A DNA stretch of 64,000 nt from positions 62,001 to 126,000 of the forward strand of contig NZ_JAQSIO010000005.1 of NCBI RefSeq assembly GCF_028649455.1, read 5' to 3'. The translations under genes were made by a program, and so were the position numbers. Positions 50,196-61,817 of this stretch are shown piece by piece; position 1 is the stretch's first letter, and the number at the start of each line of letters is the position of its first letter. This DNA is from Curvibacter microcysteis (lineage in GTDB: Bacteria; Pseudomonadota; Gammaproteobacteria; Burkholderiales; Burkholderiaceae_C). The notes below the pieces were generated by a model. It was given only the letters and a program-made list of their open reading frames with translations. It was not told the origin of the DNA and did no database searches.

Positions 50196-51148
50196 ATGAA
50201 CACCCATAAGAATGCCCGATTGACGTACCTGCGGCGAGTCGAGATGGTTCAAGACATCACTGAGCGTGGCATGAGCGCCTCACAAGCTGCTGCCCGGCAC
50301 GGCGTGAGTGCCGTGACCGCACGCAAGTGGCTCGCTCGCTATCTGGCCGACGGACCTGCCGGTCTGATGGACAAGTCCTCCCGACCAGAGCGTTCGCCGC
50401 GAGCCATTGAGCCCAGCGTTACATTGACCATCGTCGAGCTGCGTCGCAAGCTGTTTCTGCAGTCCCGGATCGCCTCGTACACGGGCGTCTCCAAGGCGAC
50501 TGTCAGCCGGGTGTTGCGTCGCGCAGGTCTGTCCAAGCTTACCGATCTCGGCCCCGCTGAGCCAGTGCAGCGCTACGAACGCGAGACGCCCGGCGAGTTG
50601 CTCCACATCGACATCAAGAAGCTGGGGCGCTTCGGCAAGGTCGGACACCGCATAACGGGCGACCGCACCCAGCGAGCACACGCAACATCGGCTGGGAGCA
50701 CGTCTTCGTGGCCATCGACGACCACAGCCGAATCGCCTTCACCCGGATGTACCCCGACGAGAAGAAGGAGAGCGCAGTGGACTTCCTCCGCGAGGCCACA
50801 CGGTACTTCGCCGGGCTACGAATGCCGATCCAGCGGCTGATCACCGACAACGGTCCTGCATTCCACTCAGCCGCATTCGGCCAGACGTGCCTGGAACTGG
50901 GCATCACTCAAAAGTTCACCCGTGCCTATCGACCTCAGACCAACGGCAAGGCCGAGCGCTTCATCCAGTCAGCACTGCGTGAATGGGCCTACGGGCGCGT
51001 ATGCCAACACTCCGATGAACGTCGCGCCGCCTTGCCTGCCTGGAACCACTTCTACAACTGGCACCGACCGCACAACGGCATCGGTTGCCTGCCGCCCATG
51101 TCTCGCCTCTCGGCCTCACGCAAGAACCTCTTGACTCTTCACACCTAG
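50196..51148 (+). pseudogene. IS481-family transposase, frameshifted
   Basis: Two overlapping frames encode one DDE transposase. The first frame (from 50196) has an N-terminal HTH (SASQAAARHGVSAVTARKWL) and the first catalytic Asp (ELLHIDIKKLGRFGKVGHR). The second (to 51148) has VAIDDHSRIAF, the second Asp (RLITDNGPAFHS) and the Glu (QTNGKAERFIQSALREW). The shift lies at about 50676-50681, where GCACAC replaces the expected GCAC: a CA duplication. Removing two bases restores a continuous protein through RNIGWEHVFVAIDDH. It is inactive unless frameshifting or a sequencing error is involved. Confidence 0.9.
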
Positions 51149-51201
51149 GTCCTGCTTGTGCGGGCGGTGAAAAGGGCGGGGTTTATTGACCGCATACTAA
51201 C

Positions 51202-51315
51202 TGGCTTGACTCTCACGAACACCTGCGAGATGTGCTGATCCGGCTGCCCACGTAAAAGGCAAGTCGAATTGCGGAGTTTCTGACCCACAGATGGGCTGGT
51301 GTGCGTCAACGCTGA
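51202..51315 (+). pseudogene. IS66-type transposase C-terminal relic
   Basis: Read in one frame, the segment gives HLRDVLIRLPT, a stop at 51253-51255, then KASRIAEFLTHRW, ending at a TGA at 51313. This resembles the C-terminus of IS66 TnpC proteins (pattern YLKDVLxRLPTxxxxxIxELLPHRW), with the residue after LPT turned into a stop. Only about 30 codons remain. The assignment is from remembered family sequence. Confidence 0.5.
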
Positions 51316-51641
51316 ATTCAAGACAGAAATTGAAAGGGACTCGTGTCCGCGCTGATTTGCGTGTACATGAATACTATATGGCGCTCATTCCGGATAGATG
51401 ACTTGGCCGGTTGCGTACGACGGGTGTTAACGGCGATAGAGTTGGATCCCGCCAGCGAGAACATCACGGCGCTGTTGCTGCTCAATCTCACACAGAGCTT
51501 GCATTGAAGTACTGGATACAAAGCGTGAGTGGCTCGAATAACCAATTCAGATAATGGGTCGCTGAACTCGAAAATCGCCGATAGAGCCCAGGTGAGGGTA
51601 TGGATTGAAATCTGCGTCCATCGAACCGTTTAACGGCATGA

Positions 51642-51671
51642 CTCCTGACTCAGCTTTGGCTGAGTCAGGAG
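51642..51671. promoter_or_regulatory. Perfect 13-bp inverted repeat
   Basis: CTCCTGACTCAGC (51642-51654) and its exact complement (51659-51671) surround a TTTG loop. A run of seven T begins 14 bp later (51686), too far for a standard terminator. It may be a remote activator site, since it shares CTGA/TCAG half-sites with palindromes nearer the promoter, or a hairpin of a vanished element. Confidence 0.5.
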
Positions 51672-51843
51672 CAGCGTGGATCTTCTTTTTTTGCTCTTAA
51701 AACTGTGCCCAAGGGGGCACTCGTCGGATGATGGCAGCATTTGCAAATGCCTTGTTCTTGAAGTCTTATCCGTATCGGACCACATCGTTCTCTCATTATC
51801 CACACCCACTAGTTGCTAAAGTTTTTTAGAGACGACGAGTAGT

Positions 51844-51914
51844 CTGACACGGGTCAGTCTGGAATCCATCCGATGAGCCGGATTGATCGATCAGTAGGAT
51901 TCTGAAATTTCAGA
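51844..51914. promoter_or_regulatory. Candidate upstream activator sites for the sigma54 regulator
   Basis: Three palindromic sites: CTGAC-4-GTCAG (51844-51857), TGATCGATCA (51884-51893) and TCTGAAATTTCAGA (51901-51914, perfect). The last is centred about 120 bp before the predicted transcription start, a normal distance for an NtrC/DctD-type enhancer. The first and last share CTGA/TCAG ends. Binding is inferred. Confidence 0.5.
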
Positions 51915-51960
51915 CAACTTAGCGATCAATAAGAAGATGATCTCAAGGCTTTTCCAATTA

Positions 51961-51973
51961 AATCAATAGCTTA
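51961..51973 (+). promoter_or_regulatory. IHF-binding consensus
   Basis: AATCAATAGCTTA matches the IHF consensus WATCAA-N4-TTR at every defined position. It lies between the palindromic sites and the -24/-12 promoter, where IHF bends DNA to bring the activator to sigma54 polymerase. Confidence 0.6.
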
Positions 51974-52001
51974 CATCTATAGGGTTTTTCCTAGGGTTTT
52001 C

Positions 52002-52017
52002 GGGCACAACAATTGCA
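52002..52017 (+). promoter_or_regulatory. Sigma54 (-24/-12) promoter of the DUF6351 operon
   Basis: GGGCAC, five bases, TTGCA (52002-52006 on, ending 52017). The invariant GG (52003-52004) and GC (52015-52016) are separated by exactly 10 bases, as sigma54 polymerase requires; only the first T of TGGCAC differs. Transcription would start near 52028, giving a leader of about 100 nt. The operon itself encodes a sigma54 activator. Confidence 0.7.
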
Positions 52018-52126
52018 GCCCTCCATCCAAGCCCACCTCTGTATGGGCTGTCGTCAACCTGAGATGCTTCAAGCGGCGACTGGGCAATCGGAATGGCCGG
52101 TCATCCCACTTTCAATGGAGATAAAC

Positions 52127-54415
52127 ATGAAAAACCTTAACCCTAAGTCTGTAACCTGGGTGCTATCCCTCTGCACTTGCGCGGTGATCACCGCCTGCGG
52201 TGGGAGCGACAGCCCGGCGATCAATGCGCCCAGCCTGCAAGTCCTTTCTTCCAAACCAGAATTTGTGAGCGGTGGCGATGCGTTGATTGACATCGCACTG
52301 CCCCCGGTGCACGAGACTTTATCGGCCAAGCTCAACGGAGCTGACGTCTCTGCTCTGTTCAAGGTCGATCCGCTGCGGCCCGGGCACCTACTGGGCCGGC
52401 TCACTGGACTGAGCACTGGCGACAACACATTGACCGTCAATGTCGGTGGGCCTGACAGCAAACTGGTGTTGACCAATTACCCCATTTCAGGTCCCATCCT
52501 GTCGGGCCCGCAGATTTCCCCCTACAACTGCCAGACCGAGGCCTTTTTGCTGCCTGATGGCACCCTCTTGGGTAAGGCCAGCGACGTCAAATGTTCAGTG
52601 TCTACCAAGGTGCAGTACCTTTACCAGTCAACAGCCGGTGGCGCGCTCAAGCCCTTGCCCAGCACCACGTCCCTGCCGGGTGATGTCGCAACCACGACCA
52701 CGACCGCTGGCGCTACTGTGCCATTTGTCGTGCGGGTAGAAACGGGCTCAATGAATCGAGGCATATACCAAAATGCGATCCTTCACGATCCCACCAAGGA
52801 CGCTGCCCCCTCACCGACTACACCGCCGAAAGGATGGAACCGAAAATTGATCGCGGTTCATGGCACTGGGTGTGCTGGCGGTTGGTACATCCAGGGCGCA
52901 GCCATGGGGGTCAGCCCCTACACCGGTACCAACCTCAAGAGGTTGGGAGAGGGTTATGCCGTGTTCACAAACACGTTGAATCACCCGACCAACAGCTGCA
53001 ACGCTACGGTGGCCGGTGAAACCACGATGATGGGTAAAGAGCACTTCATCGAGACATTCGGCGTGCCGACTTACACCGTCAGCGTAGGCACTTCGGGCGG
53101 CGCCTACACCAGCCTGCAGGTGGGTGACGCATTCCCTGGGCTGTTTGATGGGGTGTACATCGACGCGACCTTCCCCGACGCATTGGCCATCGCCATGTCC
53201 GCGATGGATGGGAAATTGCTCAACCGCTATCTGACCGGCAACAACAACAGTGCCATCACAGACGCCCAAATGGTCAAGGTCTCGGGCCACAAATCAGCGC
53301 GCGCCTGGTATGACCTGGCAGTGCAGTCTGGACGGACCGACCCTGTTTCTGGCAGGACCGAGACAATTCCTGTGGCGGGGTCTTTTGGTGGTGCCTATGC
53401 GGCTGGCCTCTTCAATGCGGCTGTGCCTGCGAGTCAACGCTGGAATGCATCCACCAACCCCACCGGAGCCCGCGCCACGGTGTTCGATGTCAATCGCAAT
53501 GTATTCGGGGTGGATGCCAGCGGCTACGGCCTGCGTCCTTTCGACAATGTGGGCGTGCAATATGGCTTGGCACAGCTCAACGACGGAACCTTGTCCAAGG
53601 ACCAGTTTCTGGACCTGAACGAAAAGATCGGAGGCTATGACCGGGATGGCAACTACACCAGCAGCCGCACAATCGGAGATGCAGGGGCGATTGCCAGGGC
53701 TTACCAGTCCGGCTTGATGTTGGGCGGCAACGGGGGCTTGGCTTCGATCCCTGTATTTGACACTTCCAACTTCTATGATGAAGACAACTTTTACCACTAC
53801 CAGTGGTTCCATTTTGCCGTGCGGGAACGCCTGCGAAAGGTCAATGGTGACGTGAGCAACCACGTGATGTGGCGCGGCGGGGTGAGCTTTGCGGACCTGT
53901 TTGGTGTGGTGACTCCAGGCAGAACAGAGCGTGCTGCCGTCAGTGCCAAGAGTTCCGCTGATGGCTGGGCCGCGTTTGTTCAATGGATCGATGCTTATAC
54001 CGCAGACACATCCACCAAGACCCAAAAGGACAAAGTGATAGTCAACAAGCCCGCACAGGCTGTTGACGGTTGTTTCACGCAATCCACCACCCCTCAATTC
54101 TTGGCCGAAACTCAGACTCCGGCCACCTCAGGTGCGGCCGGCAGTTGTAACGCGATCTATCCAACCTGGACCTACCCCCGGGCTCAGGCGGGCGCATCCA
54201 TCGCTGCAGACAAACTGAAGTGTCAGCTGAAGCCGATCCAGACCAAGGACTACAACGTGACATTCACGACCGCTGAAATGGCTCGCCTGAGCGCGATCTT
54301 TGCAGGCGGTGTCTGCGATTGGTCCAAGAACGGCGTTGGCCAATCCTCAATGGTCCCCTATGCCTCATTTGGTCCGTCCCCAGTAAACCTGGTGTTCGAC
54401 GTCACCAAGCCTTGA
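52127..54415 (+). CDS. DUF6351 family exported lipoprotein, probable alpha/beta hydrolase
   Basis: A 762-residue protein with a lipoprotein signal (LCTCAVITAC, lipid Cys24). Sequence blocks of the DUF6351 family are recognisable: LLGRLTGLSTGDNTLTV, YPISGPILSGPQISPYNCQ, VPFVVRVETGSMNRGIYQ, MMGKEHFIETFGVP. YTVSVGTSGGAYTS gives a GxSxG nucleophile elbow at Ser323, which suggests an esterase or related hydrolase like tannases. Eight further cysteines could form disulfides. Substrate unknown. I start at MKNLNPKSV (52127), preceded by GGAG at 52117-52120. First gene of a four-gene operon behind a sigma54-type promoter. Confidence 0.85.
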   Translation: MKNLNPKSVTWVLSLCTCAVITACGGSDSPAINAPSLQVLSSKPEFVSGGDALIDIALPPVHETLSAKLNGADVSALFKVDPLRPGHLLGRLTGLSTGDNTLTVNVGGPDSKLVLTNYPISGPILSGPQISPYNCQTEAFLLPDGTLLGKASDVKCSVSTKVQYLYQSTAGGALKPLPSTTSLPGDVATTTTTAGATVPFVVRVETGSMNRGIYQNAILHDPTKDAAPSPTTPPKGWNRKLIAVHGTGCAGGWYIQGAAMGVSPYTGTNLKRLGEGYAVFTNTLNHPTNSCNATVAGETTMMGKEHFIETFGVPTYTVSVGTSGGAYTSLQVGDAFPGLFDGVYIDATFPDALAIAMSAMDGKLLNRYLTGNNNSAITDAQMVKVSGHKSARAWYDLAVQSGRTDPVSGRTETIPVAGSFGGAYAAGLFNAAVPASQRWNASTNPTGARATVFDVNRNVFGVDASGYGLRPFDNVGVQYGLAQLNDGTLSKDQFLDLNEKIGGYDRDGNYTSSRTIGDAGAIARAYQSGLMLGGNGGLASIPVFDTSNFYDEDNFYHYQWFHFAVRERLRKVNGDVSNHVMWRGGVSFADLFGVVTPGRTERAAVSAKSSADGWAAFVQWIDAYTADTSTKTQKDKVIVNKPAQAVDGCFTQSTTPQFLAETQTPATSGAAGSCNAIYPTWTYPRAQAGASIAADKLKCQLKPIQTKDYNVTFTTAEMARLSAIFAGGVCDWSKNGVGQSSMVPYASFGPSPVNLVFDVTKP

Positions 54416-54424
54416 GACGGAGGG

Positions 54425-54456
54425 CGAGGCGGCATGGCCCATGCTGCGCCGCCTCG
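54425..54456 (+). promoter_or_regulatory. Hairpin between the DUF6351 and Bug genes
   Basis: CGAGGCGGC (54425-54433) pairs perfectly with GCCGCCTCG (54448-54456), with a 14-base loop, in the 82-bp gap. No T-run follows, so it is more likely an mRNA-stability or partial-readthrough element than a full terminator. Confidence 0.55.
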
Positions 54457-54497
54457 ACCTTGCTCAGCCGTATTTCCATTCAAACTCAGTTTCGGTC

Positions 54498-55499
54498 ATG
54501 AACTTCCTCGCTTCCGTATCTCGAACGCTGCTCTCCCAAGCCAAGCTGGGCATCGCCATCCTCTTGACCAGTGCCACGGTCGCCCAGGCACAGGATTTTC
54601 CAAGTCGTCCCATCACGGTGATCGTGCCGTTTTCTGCCGGAGGCCCCACAGACAAAGTCGCGCGCGACATCGCACAAATCATGGGCAAGCAACTTCAAAA
54701 GCCCTTGATCATTGAAAATGCAGCGGGGGCAGGCGGTACCATAGGCACTAAGAAAGTGGTGCTGGCCAAAAATGATGGCTATACCGTCTTGATCCACCAC
54801 ATCGGGATGGCAACGGCTCCCAGTCTGTACCGTCACCTAGGCTTTGATCCGCTTAAAGACCTTGAGATGGTGGGCGAAATAGCGGACGTGCCCATGGTGC
54901 TTCTCGGGGCCAAGGCATTTCCACCGGCAAGCGCCAATGAGCTTCCGGCATATCTAAAGGCCAATGCCTCCAATATCTCCCTGGCCAATGCCGGGATTGG
55001 CTCGGCCTCCCACCTGTGCGGCTTGCTTCTGCAAAGCGCATTGCAAACCGAGCTGACGACCGTGCCCTACAAGGGGACTGCTCCCGCGCTGTCCGATCTC
55101 ATGGGGGGCCAGGTCAACCTCATGTGCGACCAGACCACGAATGTGTCGGGTCAGATCAAGAGCGGAGCAGTGAAGCCCTATGCGGCCATGCAGACCCAGC
55201 GCATCCAGGCCTTCAAGGACATCCCGACAGCGCAAGAGGGTGGGCTGCCGCCGATCGAGGTCAAAATCTGGCATGCCATGTATGCGCCCAAAGGCACACC
55301 TGCGGCGATCATCGACAAGCTGTCCGCTGCGTTACAGGCTGCGGTTCAAGAGCCTGGTTTCAAGAGCAAAATGGCGGACCTTGGCGCTCAAGCCGTGACA
55401 CCTGCTCGTGCTCAGCCCGCTTCCCTGCGCACCCATTTGGGACATGAGATCGACAAATGGACACCCATCATCAAGAAGGCTGGCATCTACGCAGATTGA
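54498..55499 (+). CDS. Bug/TctC family periplasmic solute-binding protein
   Basis: A 333-residue exported binding protein: signal peptide ending AQAQDFPSR, then PITVIVPFSAGGPTDKVARDIAQ and NAAGAGGTIGTKKVV, hallmarks of the tripartite tricarboxylate transporter receptor (Bug) family. Members bind carboxylates such as citrate, nicotinate or aromatic acids. No TctA/TctB membrane genes are present, so transport must use a distant partner, or the protein may serve as a sensor for the kinase encoded 7 bp downstream, as described for Bordetella BctC. I start at MNFLASVSR (54498). Confidence 0.92.
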   Translation: MNFLASVSRTLLSQAKLGIAILLTSATVAQAQDFPSRPITVIVPFSAGGPTDKVARDIAQIMGKQLQKPLIIENAAGAGGTIGTKKVVLAKNDGYTVLIHHIGMATAPSLYRHLGFDPLKDLEMVGEIADVPMVLLGAKAFPPASANELPAYLKANASNISLANAGIGSASHLCGLLLQSALQTELTTVPYKGTAPALSDLMGGQVNLMCDQTTNVSGQIKSGAVKPYAAMQTQRIQAFKDIPTAQEGGLPPIEVKIWHAMYAPKGTPAAIIDKLSAALQAAVQEPGFKSKMADLGAQAVTPARAQPASLRTHLGHEIDKWTPIIKKAGIYAD

Positions 55500-55506
55500 C
55501 GGAATC

Positions 55507-57393
55507 ATGAGCCGCAGAGCCCCCCGGCGCATTCTGGCAAGCCTTGGATTTGCCCTCGCCCTGCTGACGGTGGCGTGGGCAGCTTACGAGGTGGCCGAGC
55601 GCTTTGGTGTCTCTGCGCTCAGTCAAAACACCGCCCATCGCTTCGAACTCTACAGCTCCAGCCTGCAAAACGAGTTGCGGCGCAATGAACACTTGCCGAC
55701 GTTGGTTTCGTTGAACGCGGATGTCAAGGCCCTGATGCTGAAGCCCCAGGACGCTGCGCTTCGCTTCCAGGTGAATCGCTATCTGCAAACCGTGAGTGAG
55801 CGCACTGGCGTGGCGGCCATCTATGTCATGAACCGGCAGGGGCTGACCCTGGCGGCGAGCAACTGGAACCAGGCAGTAAGTTTCATTGACATGAATTTCG
55901 CTTACAGGCCCTATTTCCAGCAAGCCTTGATGGGGCAACCAGGCCGCTTCTATGGCATCGGGACAGTGAGTCGGGAGGCGGGCTTTTACTTTGCCCGAGG
56001 CATTGAGCGGGGCGATCAAATCGAGGGTGTCGTGGCCGTCAAGGTGAACCTCGACAAGCTGGACAGCTCCTGGCAACAGCCTGGCGAGAAAGTGCTGGTG
56101 GCGGATGGCAGCGGCGTGGTTTTCCTGGCCTCTGAGCCCGCATGGAAATTCAAGACGGTGGGCCCGCTCTCTCCAGACACCCTGAAGCGGCTCGAAGCCA
56201 CGCGCCAGTACACAGAGGCGGGGGCGCTGGCGCCATTGGGCTTGATCGAACAAGAGGTGTTTCAGGACGGAACCTCCCTGGTCAACTTCGTTGACGCACG
56301 TGACGATGGACCGCCGCATTACACGACGATGGGGCGCGCCTCCTACCTGTCCAGACGGCAACCCATTCCAGGCACCGACTGGTTTCTGTACGTCTTTTCC
56401 GAGACCGCCTACTCACGGGTACTGGCAGAGATCTGTGCGGCCGTGGCGGCGCTCACATTCACTTTGTCTGTGGTCGTTTTCCTCTATTTCTTGCAGCGGC
56501 GCCGCTTCATGCGTGATGAACTCTTGGCCAAGGCGGCTTTGCAACGTGCCAATGATGAGTTGGAGGAAAAAGTCGAGTTGCGGACCGAAGACCTGCTGGA
56601 CGCCAACAGTCAGTTGCAAACAGAAATCACAGAACGCAAGCGTGCAGAAGAGACCTTGAAAGCCACGTTGGACGAACTGGTGCACGCGGCCAAGATGGCC
56701 GCATTGGGGAAAATTGCGACAGGCATCACGCACGAGTTGAACCAGCCCTTGGCTGCATTGCGCACCCTGTCTGCAAACACCCGGGTCTTCATGGAACGAG
56801 GCGACCAGGCCACTGCCGAGTCCAATCTTGAAATGATCGAACACCTGGCGGAGCACATGGGCAAGATCACTTCACAACTCAAGCGCTTTGCTCGCAAGTC
56901 CCTGGCAGAGAGCCGGCCCATCAATGTGGTGACCGCCATGAACAACGCTGCGTTTTTGCTGGCCCAGGTGACGCGCGAGCGTCAAACGGAAATCAGTCTG
57001 CAAAGCGAATCCGAAGTGTTGCTGGCCCTGTGCGACAGCAACCGGTTGGAGCAGGTGCTGGTCAATTTACTGAGCAATGCCTTGGATGCAGTTGCCCGGT
57101 GCGATCACCGCCTCATCGAAGTTCGGGCCCACCGCGAAAACGAGGGGGTCACCCTTGAAGTGCACGACAGTGGCGAGGGGCTGTCCGAACAAGCAATCCA
57201 GCATCTGTTTGAACCATTTTTCACCACCAAGGAGCAAGGCGCCGGATTGGGATTGGGGCTGGCCATCTCCGCTGATATCCTGCGCGAGTTCGGCGGCATA
57301 CTCACGGCAACGTCCAGTCCCTTGGGGGGCGCCATGTTCATCATTAATCTACCGGGGGCGAACTTGTCCCGTGACGAGGCATTGCATGTCTGA
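55507..57393 (+). CDS. DctB-like sensor histidine kinase
   Basis: A 628-residue kinase: helix at about 8-28, a large periplasmic double-Cache region (about 35-305), second helix (about 310-335), a coiled-coil linker, then HisKA with phospho-His409 (TGITHELNQPLAALRTLS) and HATPase (LVNLLSNALDAVARC, VHDSGEGLSEQ, GAGLGLGLAISADIL). The sensor contains NFAYRPYFQQALMGQPGRFYGIGT, very like the ligand-binding segment of rhizobial DctB, so a carboxylate ligand is likely. The final codons overlap the regulator gene by 8 bases, which couples their translation. Confidence 0.93.
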   Translation: MSRRAPRRILASLGFALALLTVAWAAYEVAERFGVSALSQNTAHRFELYSSSLQNELRRNEHLPTLVSLNADVKALMLKPQDAALRFQVNRYLQTVSERTGVAAIYVMNRQGLTLAASNWNQAVSFIDMNFAYRPYFQQALMGQPGRFYGIGTVSREAGFYFARGIERGDQIEGVVAVKVNLDKLDSSWQQPGEKVLVADGSGVVFLASEPAWKFKTVGPLSPDTLKRLEATRQYTEAGALAPLGLIEQEVFQDGTSLVNFVDARDDGPPHYTTMGRASYLSRRQPIPGTDWFLYVFSETAYSRVLAEICAAVAALTFTLSVVVFLYFLQRRRFMRDELLAKAALQRANDELEEKVELRTEDLLDANSQLQTEITERKRAEETLKATLDELVHAAKMAALGKIATGITHELNQPLAALRTLSANTRVFMERGDQATAESNLEMIEHLAEHMGKITSQLKRFARKSLAESRPINVVTAMNNAAFLLAQVTRERQTEISLQSESEVLLALCDSNRLEQVLVNLLSNALDAVARCDHRLIEVRAHRENEGVTLEVHDSGEGLSEQAIQHLFEPFFTTKEQGAGLGLGLAISADILREFGGILTATSSPLGGAMFIINLPGANLSRDEALHV

Positions 57394-58729
57394 CGGCCCG
57401 CTGATTCTTTATGTGGAGGACGACCCGGCCGTGCGCTTGGGCAGCACCCAAGCGCTTCAGATCGCGGGGCACCGGGTACGTTCGGTTGGTACGGCGGAAC
57501 AAGCGATTCCTCACCTCGCGCCAGGTTTTCGCGGCGTGGTTGTCACGGATGTCCGGCTGCCAGGCAAGGATGGCTTGCAACTGCTGGCGGATGTGCAACG
57601 CGTCGACAGCGGTATTCCGGTCATCCTGGTCACGGGCCATGGCGACATTTCCATGGCGGTTCATGCCATGCGGCAGGGCGCTTACGACTTCATCGAGAAA
57701 CCTTTCTCTTCCGAGCAATTGAACGAGGTCGTTGGCCGTGCTTTGGAAAAGCGCCAGCTCAGTCTGGAGGTGGATGCTCTGCGCGGCAGGCTGGCTAACT
57801 TTCAGTCGATTGAAGCCAAGCTGGTGGGCCGGTCCAACGCTATCGTTGAATTGCGTCGGGCCATCCTGAACGTCGCGTCCACATCTGCCGATGTGCTGAT
57901 CACCGGAGAAACGGGAACCGGCAAGGAGTTGGTAGCCCGCTGCCTACACGACTTCAGCAAGCGGGCTACCGGGCCCTTCGCGGCGCTGAACTGTGGCGGT
58001 ATGCCAGAAGCACTGTTTGAAAGCGAAGTGTTTGGGCATGAGGCTGGGGCGTTCACGGGTGCCGCTAAGCAGCGAATTGGCAAAATCGAGTTTGCGGCAG
58101 GCGGCTCCCTGTTTCTGGACGAGATCGAAACCATGCCCACGAACTTGCAGGTCAAGCTGCTGCGCACCTTACAGGAGCGGCAGTTTGAGCGCTTGGGCTC
58201 GAACGCACTGCACCCCATGGATTGCCGAGTGATGGCCGCGACCAAAACAGATCTTCTGAACCCACCCAGGGATCACCCGTTTCGCAGCGACTTGTACTAT
58301 CGTCTCAGCGTGGTTGTGTTAGAGGTACCGCCACTGCGAGAACGACGCGAGGACATCCCCATCTTGCTGTCTCACTTCATGCTACAGGCCGCCTTGCGTT
58401 ACGAAAGAGAAGTGCCTGAAATCGAGGGCAGCACAATGACGGATTTGCTAAGCCGCCCCTGGCAAGGCAACGTGCGAGAGTTGCGCAACATGGCAGATCG
58501 CCTCGTGCTCGGCATTCCTACTCAAGCCACCAGCGGCGCTCGAAGCATGAGCCATGCGCGCTTAGATGAGCAACTCCACCAGTTCGAGCTTTACTTAATC
58601 AAGGATGCCTTGGCTGTCAGCGCAGGCCGTGCTGCTGCAGCCAGTGAGCGCCTTGGAATTCCCAAAAAAACCCTCTATGACAAGATGAAACGCTTCGGAC
58701 TTTCCCCGCAGGACTACAGGGCGGAGTAA
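57386..58729 (+). CDS. DctD-like sigma54-dependent response regulator
   Basis: A 447-residue NtrC-family activator. Receiver domain with Asp55 (VVVTDVRLPGKDG); AAA+ domain with Walker A ITGETGTGKELVARCLHD, the sigma54-contacting GAFTGA at 221-226, and Walker B GGSLFLDEIETMP; C-terminal Fis-type HTH (AAAASERLGIPKKTLYDKMKRFGL). I start at MSDGPLILYVEDD (57386), overlapping the kinase gene. It should activate a -24/-12 promoter, and one lies in front of this operon, so autoregulation is likely. It closely resembles DctD. Confidence 0.95.
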   Translation: MSDGPLILYVEDDPAVRLGSTQALQIAGHRVRSVGTAEQAIPHLAPGFRGVVVTDVRLPGKDGLQLLADVQRVDSGIPVILVTGHGDISMAVHAMRQGAYDFIEKPFSSEQLNEVVGRALEKRQLSLEVDALRGRLANFQSIEAKLVGRSNAIVELRRAILNVASTSADVLITGETGTGKELVARCLHDFSKRATGPFAALNCGGMPEALFESEVFGHEAGAFTGAAKQRIGKIEFAAGGSLFLDEIETMPTNLQVKLLRTLQERQFERLGSNALHPMDCRVMAATKTDLLNPPRDHPFRSDLYYRLSVVVLEVPPLRERREDIPILLSHFMLQAALRYEREVPEIEGSTMTDLLSRPWQGNVRELRNMADRLVLGIPTQATSGARSMSHARLDEQLHQFELYLIKDALAVSAGRAAAASERLGIPKKTLYDKMKRFGLSPQDYRAE

Positions 58730-58792
58730 AGAGCCTGAGAGTGAGTCTCCACCTATCTGCCTCCCGGAGACGGCTGCGCTTATCAATGAGCA

Positions 58793-59172
58793 ATGTCAGC
58801 CATGCCGGTAGCATTGACTGAAGTCCTGCAGCAACAGCCCCTCATACGCCAGCTAACGTTTGCCGAAGCGTGGCCAGGGTGGCGAGAGGGGGAAGGCCTT
58901 TCCGATGTCATTCCAGAGTCTCACTCAGTTGCTGGTCTGCGCTATGCATTGCTATCGATGGCCCTCAAAGGTGCTGTTCGGGGACGCGGGGTAGCGTTGC
59001 TGCCGAACTTCATTGCTCATACTGCGTTGGCGAAAGGGAGTTGCTGCACCTCAGTCCACAGGCCTGGGTCGCCCCGTATGCCTATTACCTGCTTTGGCCA
59101 GCTGATCGAGTGGAGACACCTGTAATGCAGACGTCTTCGGGGTGGCTTGATTCGCAGGAGCGTCAGCCGTGA
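58793..59172 (+). pseudogene. LysR-type regulator fragment, truncated and frameshifted
   Basis: Only the end of an effector-binding domain remains. Frame one gives FAEAWPGWREGEGLSDVIPE, then LSMALKGAVRGRGVALLPNF, which resembles the GcvA-type LysR pattern. After a shift near 59030 another frame continues ELLHLSPQAWVAPYAYYLLWP and SGWLDSQE, the usual LysR C-terminus. No DNA-binding domain is present. It marks the decayed right side of the island. Confidence 0.75.
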
Positions 59173-59640
59173 TGGTTCGAGTTGAGGTTCGAGTAGCAAC
59201 GCAACGGTGAACCGACTGATGTATTGCCTGCGCTTCTTTGCTCATTCAATCCGTAAGGGGCGGTGCTCTTGCCTTCCCAGCAGGCTAGATGCGGGGCGTA
59301 ACAAGTGGGTATCAGTGAGCCCAGGGTAATGGCGACCTTGTGGAGTCTGTGTGTGGCAGGCAGAGCACGGCTAAGGCTTGCGTGACCGTTCTTACCCTTG
59401 AATTCCTGGACCTGCCAAAACACAAACGTGCTGCCGTTCACCAGCCTCATTGGCTTTTAGGTTCGAGACCTCCTCGCAAATCGACCGCCTGGTGGGGAGG
59501 TCTGGTCAAGACTCACGAGGACTCGATAGCTGGCCCGCTGAGGGCCAGCAATACAGAACTCAGTGAGAAAAGTTCAATACTCGCGCGGACTCGACATCAA
59601 CCAAGAACCTCACCCCTCAAATGGTCAGGGAACTTTGCGC
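59173..59640. other. Gene-free right margin of the island
   Basis: About 470 bp between the LysR relic and the rpoH operator with no credible gene. It contains a perfect 8-bp hairpin (GCTGGCCC 59529-59536 with GGGCCAGC 59542-59549), followed immediately by the right copy of the inverted repeat. Open frames here have no recognisable sequence. Confidence 0.7.
59554..59581 (-). repeat. Right copy of island-flanking inverted repeat
   Basis: The reverse complement reads AGTATTGAACT, two bases, TCTCACTGAGTTCTG, matching the left copy at 49964-49993 in inverted orientation with two mismatches and a 2-bp shorter spacer. Confidence 0.75.
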
Positions 59641-59670: not shown

Positions 59671-59694
59671 CGCCTCATGAAAAGGATTTCTGGT

Positions 59695-60633
59695 ATGAAA
59701 TTTCAAACTGGAGTCAATGCTACGGCCCTCGCCCCGGTGAACCCGTGGGGCATGGTCCCGGCACTGGGTAACCTCGACGCCTACATCACGGCCGTCAACC
59801 GCTTGCCCATGCTCACGCTGGAAGAAGAACAACGCTACGCCCGAGATCTGCGCGACCACAACAGCGTGGACGCAGCCGGCCGCCTGGTGTTGTCGCACCT
59901 GCGCCTGGTGGTGTCGGTGTCGCGCCAGTACCTGGGCTACGGCTTGCCACAAGGCGACCTGATCCAGGAAGGCAATGTGGGCCTGATGAAGGCCGTCAAG
60001 CGCTTTGACCCTGAGCAAGGCGTGCGCCTGGTCAGTTACGCGCTGCACTGGATCAAGGCCGAGATCCACGAATACATTTTGAAGAACTGGCGCATGGTCA
60101 AGGTCGCCACGACCAAGGCCCAACGCAAGCTGTTCTTCAACCTACGGTCAATGAAGCAAGGCTTCAAGACCGACGCCATGGAAGAAGGCGCGACCCACCG
60201 CGACACCCTGAGCAACGCTGAAATCGACATGATGGCGGAGCAACTCAAGGTCAAGCGCGAAGAGGTCATGGAGATGGAAACCCGGATGTCCGGTGGCGAC
60301 GTGCTGCTGGACCCCTCGCCTTCCGATGACGGTGAGCAAGCTTTTGGCCCCATCGCCTACTTGGCCGATGCCGCCCATGAACCGACGGCCATGATCGAGT
60401 CCCATCAGCGCGACGTGTTGGCCAGCGATGGCATTGCTGCCGCACTGGAAGGCCTGGATGAGCGCAGCCGCCGCATCGTGGAAGAGCGTTGGCTCAAGGT
60501 CAATGACGACGGCTCGGGCGGCATGACGCTGCATGAGTTGGCGGCTGAATACAAGGTCAGTGCCGAGCGGATCCGCCAGATCGAGGTCGCGGCCATGAAA
60601 AAGATGAAGAAGGCCTTGGTCGAATACGCCTGA
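59695..60633 (+). CDS. rpoH: RNA polymerase sigma factor RpoH (sigma32)
   Basis: Heat-shock sigma factor of 312 residues. Region 2 (LRLVVSVSRQYLGYGLPQGDLIQEGNVGLMKAV), the RpoH box (QRKLFFNLR) that sets this class apart, and region 4 (LAAEYKVSAERIRQIEVAAMKKM) are all present. I start at MKFQTGVNA (59695), which has an AAGGA site at the right distance; an ATG at 59677 falls at the predicted transcription start. A CIRCE element lies 27 bp upstream, so HrcA probably controls it, linking the two heat-shock circuits. A terminator follows. Confidence 0.96.
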   Translation: MKFQTGVNATALAPVNPWGMVPALGNLDAYITAVNRLPMLTLEEEQRYARDLRDHNSVDAAGRLVLSHLRLVVSVSRQYLGYGLPQGDLIQEGNVGLMKAVKRFDPEQGVRLVSYALHWIKAEIHEYILKNWRMVKVATTKAQRKLFFNLRSMKQGFKTDAMEEGATHRDTLSNAEIDMMAEQLKVKREEVMEMETRMSGGDVLLDPSPSDDGEQAFGPIAYLADAAHEPTAMIESHQRDVLASDGIAAALEGLDERSRRIVEERWLKVNDDGSGGMTLHELAAEYKVSAERIRQIEVAAMKKMKKALVEYA

Positions 60634-60803: not shown

Positions 60804-61817
60804 ATGCCTTTCACGCCCACCCGCCGCCAGACCCTTGGCAAGATCTTGCTGAGTTCATTGACCCTCGCCAGCGGCTTGGGCATGGGCAGCGCCCAAGCCG
60901 ACCTGGCCACGCCAGGGTGGCCCAGCAAGACGGTGCGCATCGTTGTCGGTTTCCCGGGCGGGTCCTCACCAGATCTGGTGGCACGCACCCTGGCAGAACC
61001 TTTGTCCAAGGCCCTGGGACAGCCCGTCATTGTGGAAAACCGCGTCGGTGCCGCCGGCAACATTGCGGCCCAACTGGTGGCCCAGGCCACCGACCAGCAC
61101 ACCCTGGGCCTGATGATCAATGGCAACATGACGGTGGCGCGTCTGCTCAACCCCAAACTGGGCTTTGATCCACTGAAGGACTTCGCACCGATCAGCCTGA
61201 TCGCCACGGCGCCCCTGGTGCTCGCGACCCCAGCCTCGCCATCGACAAGTGCTTTGAGCGCCAAGGCCGCGCTGGACAGCGCACGCCAAGCGGGATCGCA
61301 ATGGAGCTACGGCAGCCCCGGCGTGGGCACCGTGGCCCACATCGGCATGGAAGCCCTCAAAGGGCGAGCCAAGATGGAAGCCGTTCACGTGCCCTACCCT
61401 GGCAATCCTCAGGTCATCACCGGCATGATCGGCGGGCAATTGCAGTTGGCCCTGTTGCCGCCCGGCCTGGCCCAGGCCCAGATCAAAGCGGGCAAGCTGC
61501 ATGCCATCGCGGTGACGTCCAGCACGCGCAGCACCTTGGTGCCTGACATCCCCAGCCTCAGCGAAGCGGGCTTGCCGGGCTTCAACCTGGAGATTTGGGA
61601 TGCCCTGGCAGCACCGGCGTCGATGCCTGCACCCATCGTGGCGCGCTTGTCGGCCCTGGTCAGCGAGATCAGCCGCTCACCCGACGTGCGGGCCAAGCTG
61701 TACCAGCAAGGTTGGCAGGTGGTGGGCTCGTCTTCAGAGGGCCTGGCCAATCGCATCCAGTCAGACTTGAAGAGCCTGGGTGAAGTGGTTCAGCGTCAGG
61801 GCATCAAAACCGACTGA
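60804..61817 (+). CDS. Bug/TctC family periplasmic solute-binding protein
   Basis: A 337-residue exported protein. An N-terminal RRQTLGKILLSSLTL stretch with twin arginines suggests Tat or Sec export, with cleavage after AQA. The mature domain carries TVRIVVGFPGGSSPDLVARTLAE and ENRVGAAGNIAAQLVA, diagnostic of the Bug family. No TctA/TctB genes accompany it, so it is one of the many orphan Bug receptors typical of Burkholderiales. The ligand is unknown. It differs clearly from the island copy at 54498 and is convergent with the sco gene. Confidence 0.92.
   Translation: MPFTPTRRQTLGKILLSSLTLASGLGMGSAQADLATPGWPSKTVRIVVGFPGGSSPDLVARTLAEPLSKALGQPVIVENRVGAAGNIAAQLVAQATDQHTLGLMINGNMTVARLLNPKLGFDPLKDFAPISLIATAPLVLATPASPSTSALSAKAALDSARQAGSQWSYGSPGVGTVAHIGMEALKGRAKMEAVHVPYPGNPQVITGMIGGQLQLALLPPGLAQAQIKAGKLHAIAVTSSTRSTLVPDIPSLSEAGLPGFNLEIWDALAAPASMPAPIVARLSALVSEISRSPDVRAKLYQQGWQVVGSSSEGLANRIQSDLKSLGEVVQRQGIKTD

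Follow-up and report, generated by a model that had tools for sequence, protein, structure and literature searches.

A candidate sigma54 control region of DctD type ahead of a DUF6351 operon in Curvibacter microcysteis

In the window analysed here, a 64,000-nucleotide stretch of a Curvibacter microcysteis contig, a gene for a DUF6351 protein is followed on the + strand by genes for a TctC-type binding protein, a DctB-like kinase and a DctD-like regulator, in that order. An earlier note on this DNA had proposed, from palindromes, an IHF consensus and a sigma54 element upstream of the first gene, that the operon is controlled by its own kinase/regulator pair. The locus therefore raises the question of whether it is so controlled, and through which sites. 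The sequence comparisons below make it highly probable, in our judgement, that this is an autoregulated sigma54 operon of the DctBD type, whose regulator would activate at two dyads, 51868–51883 and 51900–51915. The features referred to are the following.

51868–51883, no strand assigned: UAS1, the dyad ATCCG-N6-CGGAT in ATCCGATGAGCCGGAT, proposed as the distal activator site; dyads of its kind are spaced by 32 in related promoters
51900–51915, no strand assigned: UAS2, proposed proximal activator site TTCTGAAATTTCAGAC, the third palindrome of the earlier note plus one base each side
51961–51973, + strand: IHF-like site AATCAATAGCTTA, exact match to WATCAAN4TTR
52002–52017, + strand: putative -24/-12 sigma54 promoter GGGCACAACAATTGCA, GG and GC 10 bases apart, conserved in orthologous operons
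52025–52029, + strand: expected transcription start, ∼52028, placed by promoter type 12 nt past the -12 GC
52030–52049, + strand: possible hairpin (6-bp arms) where the 5' leader begins, from the palindrome list
52127–54415, + strand: DUF6351 gene (profile match PF19878, E 4e-219); predicted lipoprotein, α/β-hydrolase fold, Ser323 in GTSGG
54441–55499, + strand, start 54441 or 54498: TctC/Bug-type periplasmic binding protein (PF03401, E 1e-58)
55507–57393, + strand: DctB-like sensor kinase (dCache, HisKA, HATPase) by domain search, start read from the sequence
57386–58729, + strand: DctD-like sigma54 activator (receiver, AAA+ with GAFTGA, Fis HTH) by domain search

The operon and its promoter

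The genes for the binding protein and the kinase are separated by 7 nt, and the regulator gene overlaps the kinase stop by 8 nt. The two-component pair is of the DctBD type, a dCache kinase beside a DctD-type regulator, and the latter unites in one protein the receiver, AAA+ domain and Fis-type HTH of the activators that act in DctD/NtrC control, with the GAFTGA motif present as the earlier note had read it in the last gene. The operon contains no dicarboxylate transporter gene, only those for DUF6351 and TctC ahead of the pair, while an SDF-linked paralogue is located elsewhere in the genome. One rpoN (profile match E 2e-64) and a single DUF6351 gene are found in the genome. Since 1 of 9 genomes searched in the genus holds a DUF6351 gene, the operon is accessory there. 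Around it lie an IS481-type transposase that is divided between two overlapping frames (50196–51148), ∼700 bp before the control region, and a second TctC binding-protein gene (60804–61817), adjacent to a gene for a sigma factor of the sigma70 family (59677–60633); proteins similar to this second TctC/sigma factor pair are found in G718, a genome of the same genus, near its relative of the kinase.

The motifs of the earlier note are all where it had placed them: a sigma54 element at 52002–52017 with GG and GC exactly 10 bases apart, an exact IHF consensus at 51961–51973, and the palindromes CTGACACGGGTCAG (51844–51857), TGATCGATCA (51884–51893) and TCTGAAATTTCAGA (51901–51914). Their individual frequencies are ordinary. 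The sigma54 element makes one departure from TGGCAC-N5-TTGCW, at the first base; KGGCAC-N5-TTGCW at ≤1 mismatch is matched 10 times in the window (10.3 expected), 52002 being the only exact match in the 64 kb, and a genome-wide search of both strands with TGGCAC-N5-TTGCW at ≤1 mismatch returned 286 matches against 98 for a reversed control pattern. The exact IHF consensus occurs once in the window, compared to 0.45 times expected and at least one occurrence in 40 of 100 shuffles. Palindromes, counted with arms of at least 5 and spacers of at most 8, number 4 in the 185-bp interval, where 185-bp tiles average 2.15 and 20% of them have as many, and perfect 14-mer palindromes number 10 in 64 kb where 3.9 are expected; by themselves the palindromes are not above chance level. 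Two further elements lie immediately before the control region, a hairpin whose 13-bp arms pair perfectly (51642–51671) and a perfect 14-mer palindrome GCATTTGCAAATGC (51737–51750), both equal in quality to the noted palindromes. A search of 51100–59600 gave no sigma70-like promoter, compared to 2.9 expected from shuffles, and no Rfam match at the gathering score.

Related operons

The same four-gene operon was verified in 12 places, the window included, which are effectively three lineages. The others are a Polaromonas locus (L041, its four genes at 71, 76, 54 and 71% identity), full operons in G285 (L123), on a Variovorax boronicumulans replicon (L176, where the regulator is absent from the gene table and was found by translated search) and on a V. 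paradoxus replicon (L177), and full operons in seven more genomes of G285's genus. That genus and Variovorax are probably one and the same, the match from G876 agreeing with the V. paradoxus record. A Rhodoferax contig that ends inside DUF6351 (L079) carries a probable further operon. The V. boronicumulans plasmid also has a second DUF6351 gene (L176:31-2367), divergent from a Crp/Fnr-type regulator.

Absence of the control elements from orthologous operons, an outcome the earlier note had named as counting against it, did not occur for the sigma54 and IHF-like sites: every one of the 12 verified operons has both of them upstream of its first gene, each with 0–1 mismatch. The IHF-like site starts 41 nt before the sigma54 site in the window and in L041, and 29 nt before it in the other ten, so the distance is fixed within lineages and not uniform across them; in the truncated L079 both sites have 0 mismatches and are 40 nt apart. 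DUF6351 genes without an adjoining regulator provide the comparison, with up to 560 bases scanned per locus and L010–L016, L018 and L019 set aside as duplicates. In this set, which omits L047, L058, loci with little upstream DNA and matches starting beyond residue 60, a sigma54 site is found at 2 of 69 loci at ≤1 mismatch and 5 of 69 at ≤2, and at none of the nine unlinked loci whose protein is at least 60% identical to that of the window (≤2 mismatches). Because it occurs in 12 of 12 verified operons and 2 of 69 unlinked loci, the sigma54 site accompanies the regulator and not the enzyme gene, an association that gives a Fisher's P of 1.7e-4 when three lineages are counted instead of 12 operons. 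This pattern supports the proposal that the operon would be controlled by its own kinase/regulator pair.

In a gap-free alignment of ten promoters from Variovorax and G285's genus, the UAS1, UAS2, IHF and sigma54 blocks carry 1.55–1.69 bits per column, compared to 0.76 outside them. It is this conservation across related operons, and not single motifs, that lifts the control region above chance, and it also supports the order of activator sites, IHF site and sigma54 promoter that the earlier note had likened to NtrC/DctD-regulated promoters. On these comparisons the sigma54 promoter ahead of the DUF6351 operon is very probably real, with the IHF-like motif placed between candidate activator sites and promoter as the DctD/NtrC type requires. 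A further conserved block, CGGGAAAACC, lies ∼66 nt before the sigma54 site in L123, L176, L177, L193, L195, L196 and L198–L201; none was seen by eye in the window promoter.

The regulators of these operons fall in a clade of 15 rows (support 100/99) made up of the 12 verified DUF6351-linked ones, two cut by contig ends and L197. With the two cut loci (L192, L194) provisionally entered as DUF6351-linked, the label count on the tree is 2 changes, one of them made by L197. This last locus (in G794) has kinase and regulator, and gave no DUF6351 or TctC match in the 9.2 kb covered, part of which reads N.

Paired activator sites and rival readings

The palindromes had been taken as the activator sites. 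That role survives for 51901–51914, as the core of the 16-bp UAS2, while 51844–51857 and 51884–51893 are not conserved as such, and the likelier distal site, the dyad ATCCGATGAGCCGGAT at 51868–51883, had been missed. In a model built from the orthologues, the 16-mer centred on 51844–51857 ranks 63,855 of 63,985 (11,254 of 63,985 when shifted one base left, to 51842), and 51884–51893, which sits between the two proposed sites, has no well-scoring register among those tried. By itself UAS2 ranks 2 of 63,985 in the orthologue model and 501 in a model built from paralogues only, UAS1 ranks 605 of 63,985 and 26, respectively, and the pair ranks 1 and 2 of 63,953. We therefore regard UAS2 as a well supported candidate activator site, and UAS1 as a likely one, whose support comes mainly from the fixed spacing.

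A scan with the dyad first noticed between the window and L123 found two 16-bp sites 32 bp apart in each of the six promoters covered, at -132/-100 in L041, -131/-99 in L079 and -123/-91 in L123, L176 and L177. Seven promoters were added later, and six of these have both dyads at -123/-91 with ≤3 mismatches each, L193 exceeding this at one site. With a leave-one-lineage-out matrix 0 of 2000 shuffles reached the window pair, a test that is not blind, as the spacing of 32 had been seen on all six promoters beforehand, and whose rank is carried mostly by UAS2. On leaving one out, none of the 64 spacings outscores 32 in four of the six promoters, and a single one does so in each of the other two, the window (43) and L079 (28). 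The paralogue-only model, a cleaner but weaker test, returns the proposed pair, at 32, as the best at spacings 31–33 in all six promoters; the pair was reached by 17 of 1000 shuffles for the window and by 2, 5, 24, 24 and 142 (L177) of 1000 for the others. In a motif-free search for dyads only, the combination of gap 6 and spacing 32 comes first only with the window included. These results point to paired upstream activator sites on a conserved spacing, with the distal site the weaker in the window, and because that site is ambiguous our confidence in the preferred explanation is slightly lowered.

A similar layout is found in paralogous systems. Of 18 paralogue loci, the seven in which one site had been found close to a sigma54 site were looked at for a tandem arrangement, and these have GTTCGG-N4-CCGAAC-like dyads with a second dyad at 31–33 bp, together with an IHF-like site in four; mismatches in the weaker dyad of a pair range from 1 to 4 of 12, and are 3–4 of 12 in four of the seven. 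Both of the paralogous systems checked for an SDF dicarboxylate symporter gene, L130 in the window genome and L171, come after such a gene. According to two reports (PMC7386598, PMC7962211), AauS/AauR combines TTCGG-N4-CCGAA sites of 5-4-5 dyad geometry with RpoN dependence and glutamate/aspartate transport; the geometry and RpoN-type promoter are like those of the window, whereas AauR regulates an ABC transporter and its half-sites have another sequence. In a scan with the AauR consensus, the fewest mismatches in the region were 3 of 10, a value reached by UAS1 among others; the 64 kb as a whole holds 204 such matches. Since the paralogues share the tandem layout, and the 5-4-5 geometry is as published for AauR, the control region can be read as a DctD-type one with altered half-sites. 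The window sites differ from the GTTCGG-N4-CCGAAC-like sites at no fewer than 5 of 12 positions, which would fit the difference in recognition helix between the seven paralogues (AKTTLHDK/AKTTLFDK) and the orthologues (PKKTLYDK/PRKTLYDK); four other paralogue rows (L136, L138, L141, L178) share PRKTLYD.

The closest comparison within the genome is the dctA promoter under DctB/DctD (contig C3, L130), which shares with the window operon the families of kinase and regulator, a pair of 16-bp dyads at a spacing of 32 bp, an IHF-like site and a -24/-12 promoter. Its half-sites and recognition helix are unlike those of the window operon, and its target is a dicarboxylate symporter where the window has a hydrolase and an orphan binding protein. 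The shared dyad geometry, and the presence of six other strong sigma54 activators in the window genome, give some grounds for supposing that a genuine sigma54 promoter is here driven by another activator (the DctD of the dctA locus, NtrC or other) and that the operon's own regulator acts elsewhere. We consider this unlikely, as the sigma54 sites go with the neighbouring regulator and the paralogues differ in both sites and recognition helix as described; as for NtrC, a consensus scan found no convincing site, the best match in the region having 4 mismatches.

It is also rather improbable, in our view, that the operon's regulator binds a different set of sites, either 51844–51857 and 51884–51893 with 51901–51914, or 51857–51872 with UAS2. 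The palindromes are certainly present, the third being the core of UAS2, but their density is ordinary and the first two score poorly in the orthologue model; in the same model the pairing of 51857–51872 and UAS2, spaced by 43, has a slight lead over the proposed pair (16.8 vs 15.7 at spacing 32), but 43 is not the best spacing in any other promoter. The agreement of single-motif counts with chance would suit a reading in which the motifs are accidental and an ordinary promoter serves the operon, which we nevertheless judge very improbable given the recurrence of sigma54 and IHF-like sites throughout the verified operons, at spacings fixed within lineages, and the empty sigma70 search.

Gene products and a possible sensing circuit

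DUF6351 is, by Pfam's own name, a family of unknown function, mentioned only in passing in the literature searched. The structure model of the window protein (pLDDT 92) has an α/β-hydrolase fold, and Ser323 in GTSGG is invariant in 40 of 40 aligned proteins (L082, with a stop codon, was left out), so that an α/β-hydrolase fold with a nucleophilic serine is predicted, the fold by model and the serine by conservation. A lipobox, ITAC-G, was read by eye from the sequence, and the product is predicted to be an extracytoplasmic, esterase-like lipoprotein. Pfam places the family as tannase-like. Foldseek ranks MHETase and feruloyl esterases first, at ∼10–14% identity and with poor superposition (rmsd mostly 15–20), while VIA-align puts S9 acylaminoacyl peptidases first (Z ∼16, residues 139–625) with many α/β hydrolases close behind; the likeness to MHETase, feruloyl esterase and tannase thus lies in the tannase-like Pfam call and the top Foldseek ranks, whereas VIA-align favours other α/β hydrolases. 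A sequence search of the PDB found no significant relative. Polymalate or polyaspartate was considered as substrate, and the polymalatase papers found, judged by titles and the beginnings of abstracts, include none on an enzyme of the DUF6351 family; nor did a keyword search find literature joining tannase-family esterase, tripartite tricarboxylate, sigma54 and two-component themes in Variovorax.

The best solved relative of the TctC-type binding protein is BugD (2f5x, E 2e-98), which is described as binding aspartate in a review (PMC5812351). Both copies of TctA in the genome are on other contigs and none is in the operon, which does not show the TTT grouping of TctC with TctA/TctB. The same review describes BctC of Bordetella, a TctC-type binding protein, as needed for two-component signalling in the citrate system BctC/BctDE. 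Both systems tie such a binding protein to a two-component system, although BctC also serves a transporter, BctBA, and the window operon has no transporter gene. Because BctC is needed for signalling, the orphan binding protein could plausibly take part in sensing. The nearest relative of the kinase (55%), in G718 and cut by a contig end, follows a Peripla_BP_6 binding protein (L170:14628-15842) that ends 61 nt upstream; there is no DUF6351 or TctC match directly upstream of it and no + strand sigma54 site within the 660 bases scanned. This neighbourhood would fit a kinase that works with binding proteins.

For the autoregulated operon of DctBD type that we favour, we infer the following sequence of events. 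The DctB-like kinase would detect, perhaps with the TctC binding protein as intermediary, a ligand in the periplasm, which is probably a carboxylic acid set free by the esterase-like DUF6351 lipoprotein. Once phosphorylated, the DctD-like regulator would bind the two 16-bp dyads 32 bp apart, at 51868–51883 and 51900–51915, and IHF would bend the DNA at 51961–51973, bringing the regulator onto RNA polymerase-sigma54 at 52002–52017. The four genes would be transcribed on a single transcript from ∼52028 and, as these include the kinase and regulator, a positive loop would result. The region would accordingly resemble known DctD control regions set on a new target, with a lipoprotein hydrolase and an orphan binding protein apparently taking the place of a transporter.

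A more speculative extension, possible in our view if somewhat doubtful, is that the BugD-like protein, without a transport partner, is a ligand-loaded co-sensor of the DctB-like kinase and that the product of the DUF6351 hydrolase reports on the enzyme's own substrate, in a circuit for sensing a polymer or ester that arose from DctBD when the transporter was exchanged for a hydrolase and a sensor protein. The Peripla_BP_6 protein ahead of the kinase relative in G718 makes this slightly more probable. The regulator clade, for its part, suggests that a DctD-type regulator has changed its half-sites while keeping the 32-bp layout. For the enzyme family, the question of the DUF6351 substrate becomes an inducer screen, in which a compound that switches the promoter on is likely to be the substrate or the product, and if the co-sensor reading is true, the kinship with BugD and DctB would point to a C4-dicarboxylate-like product.
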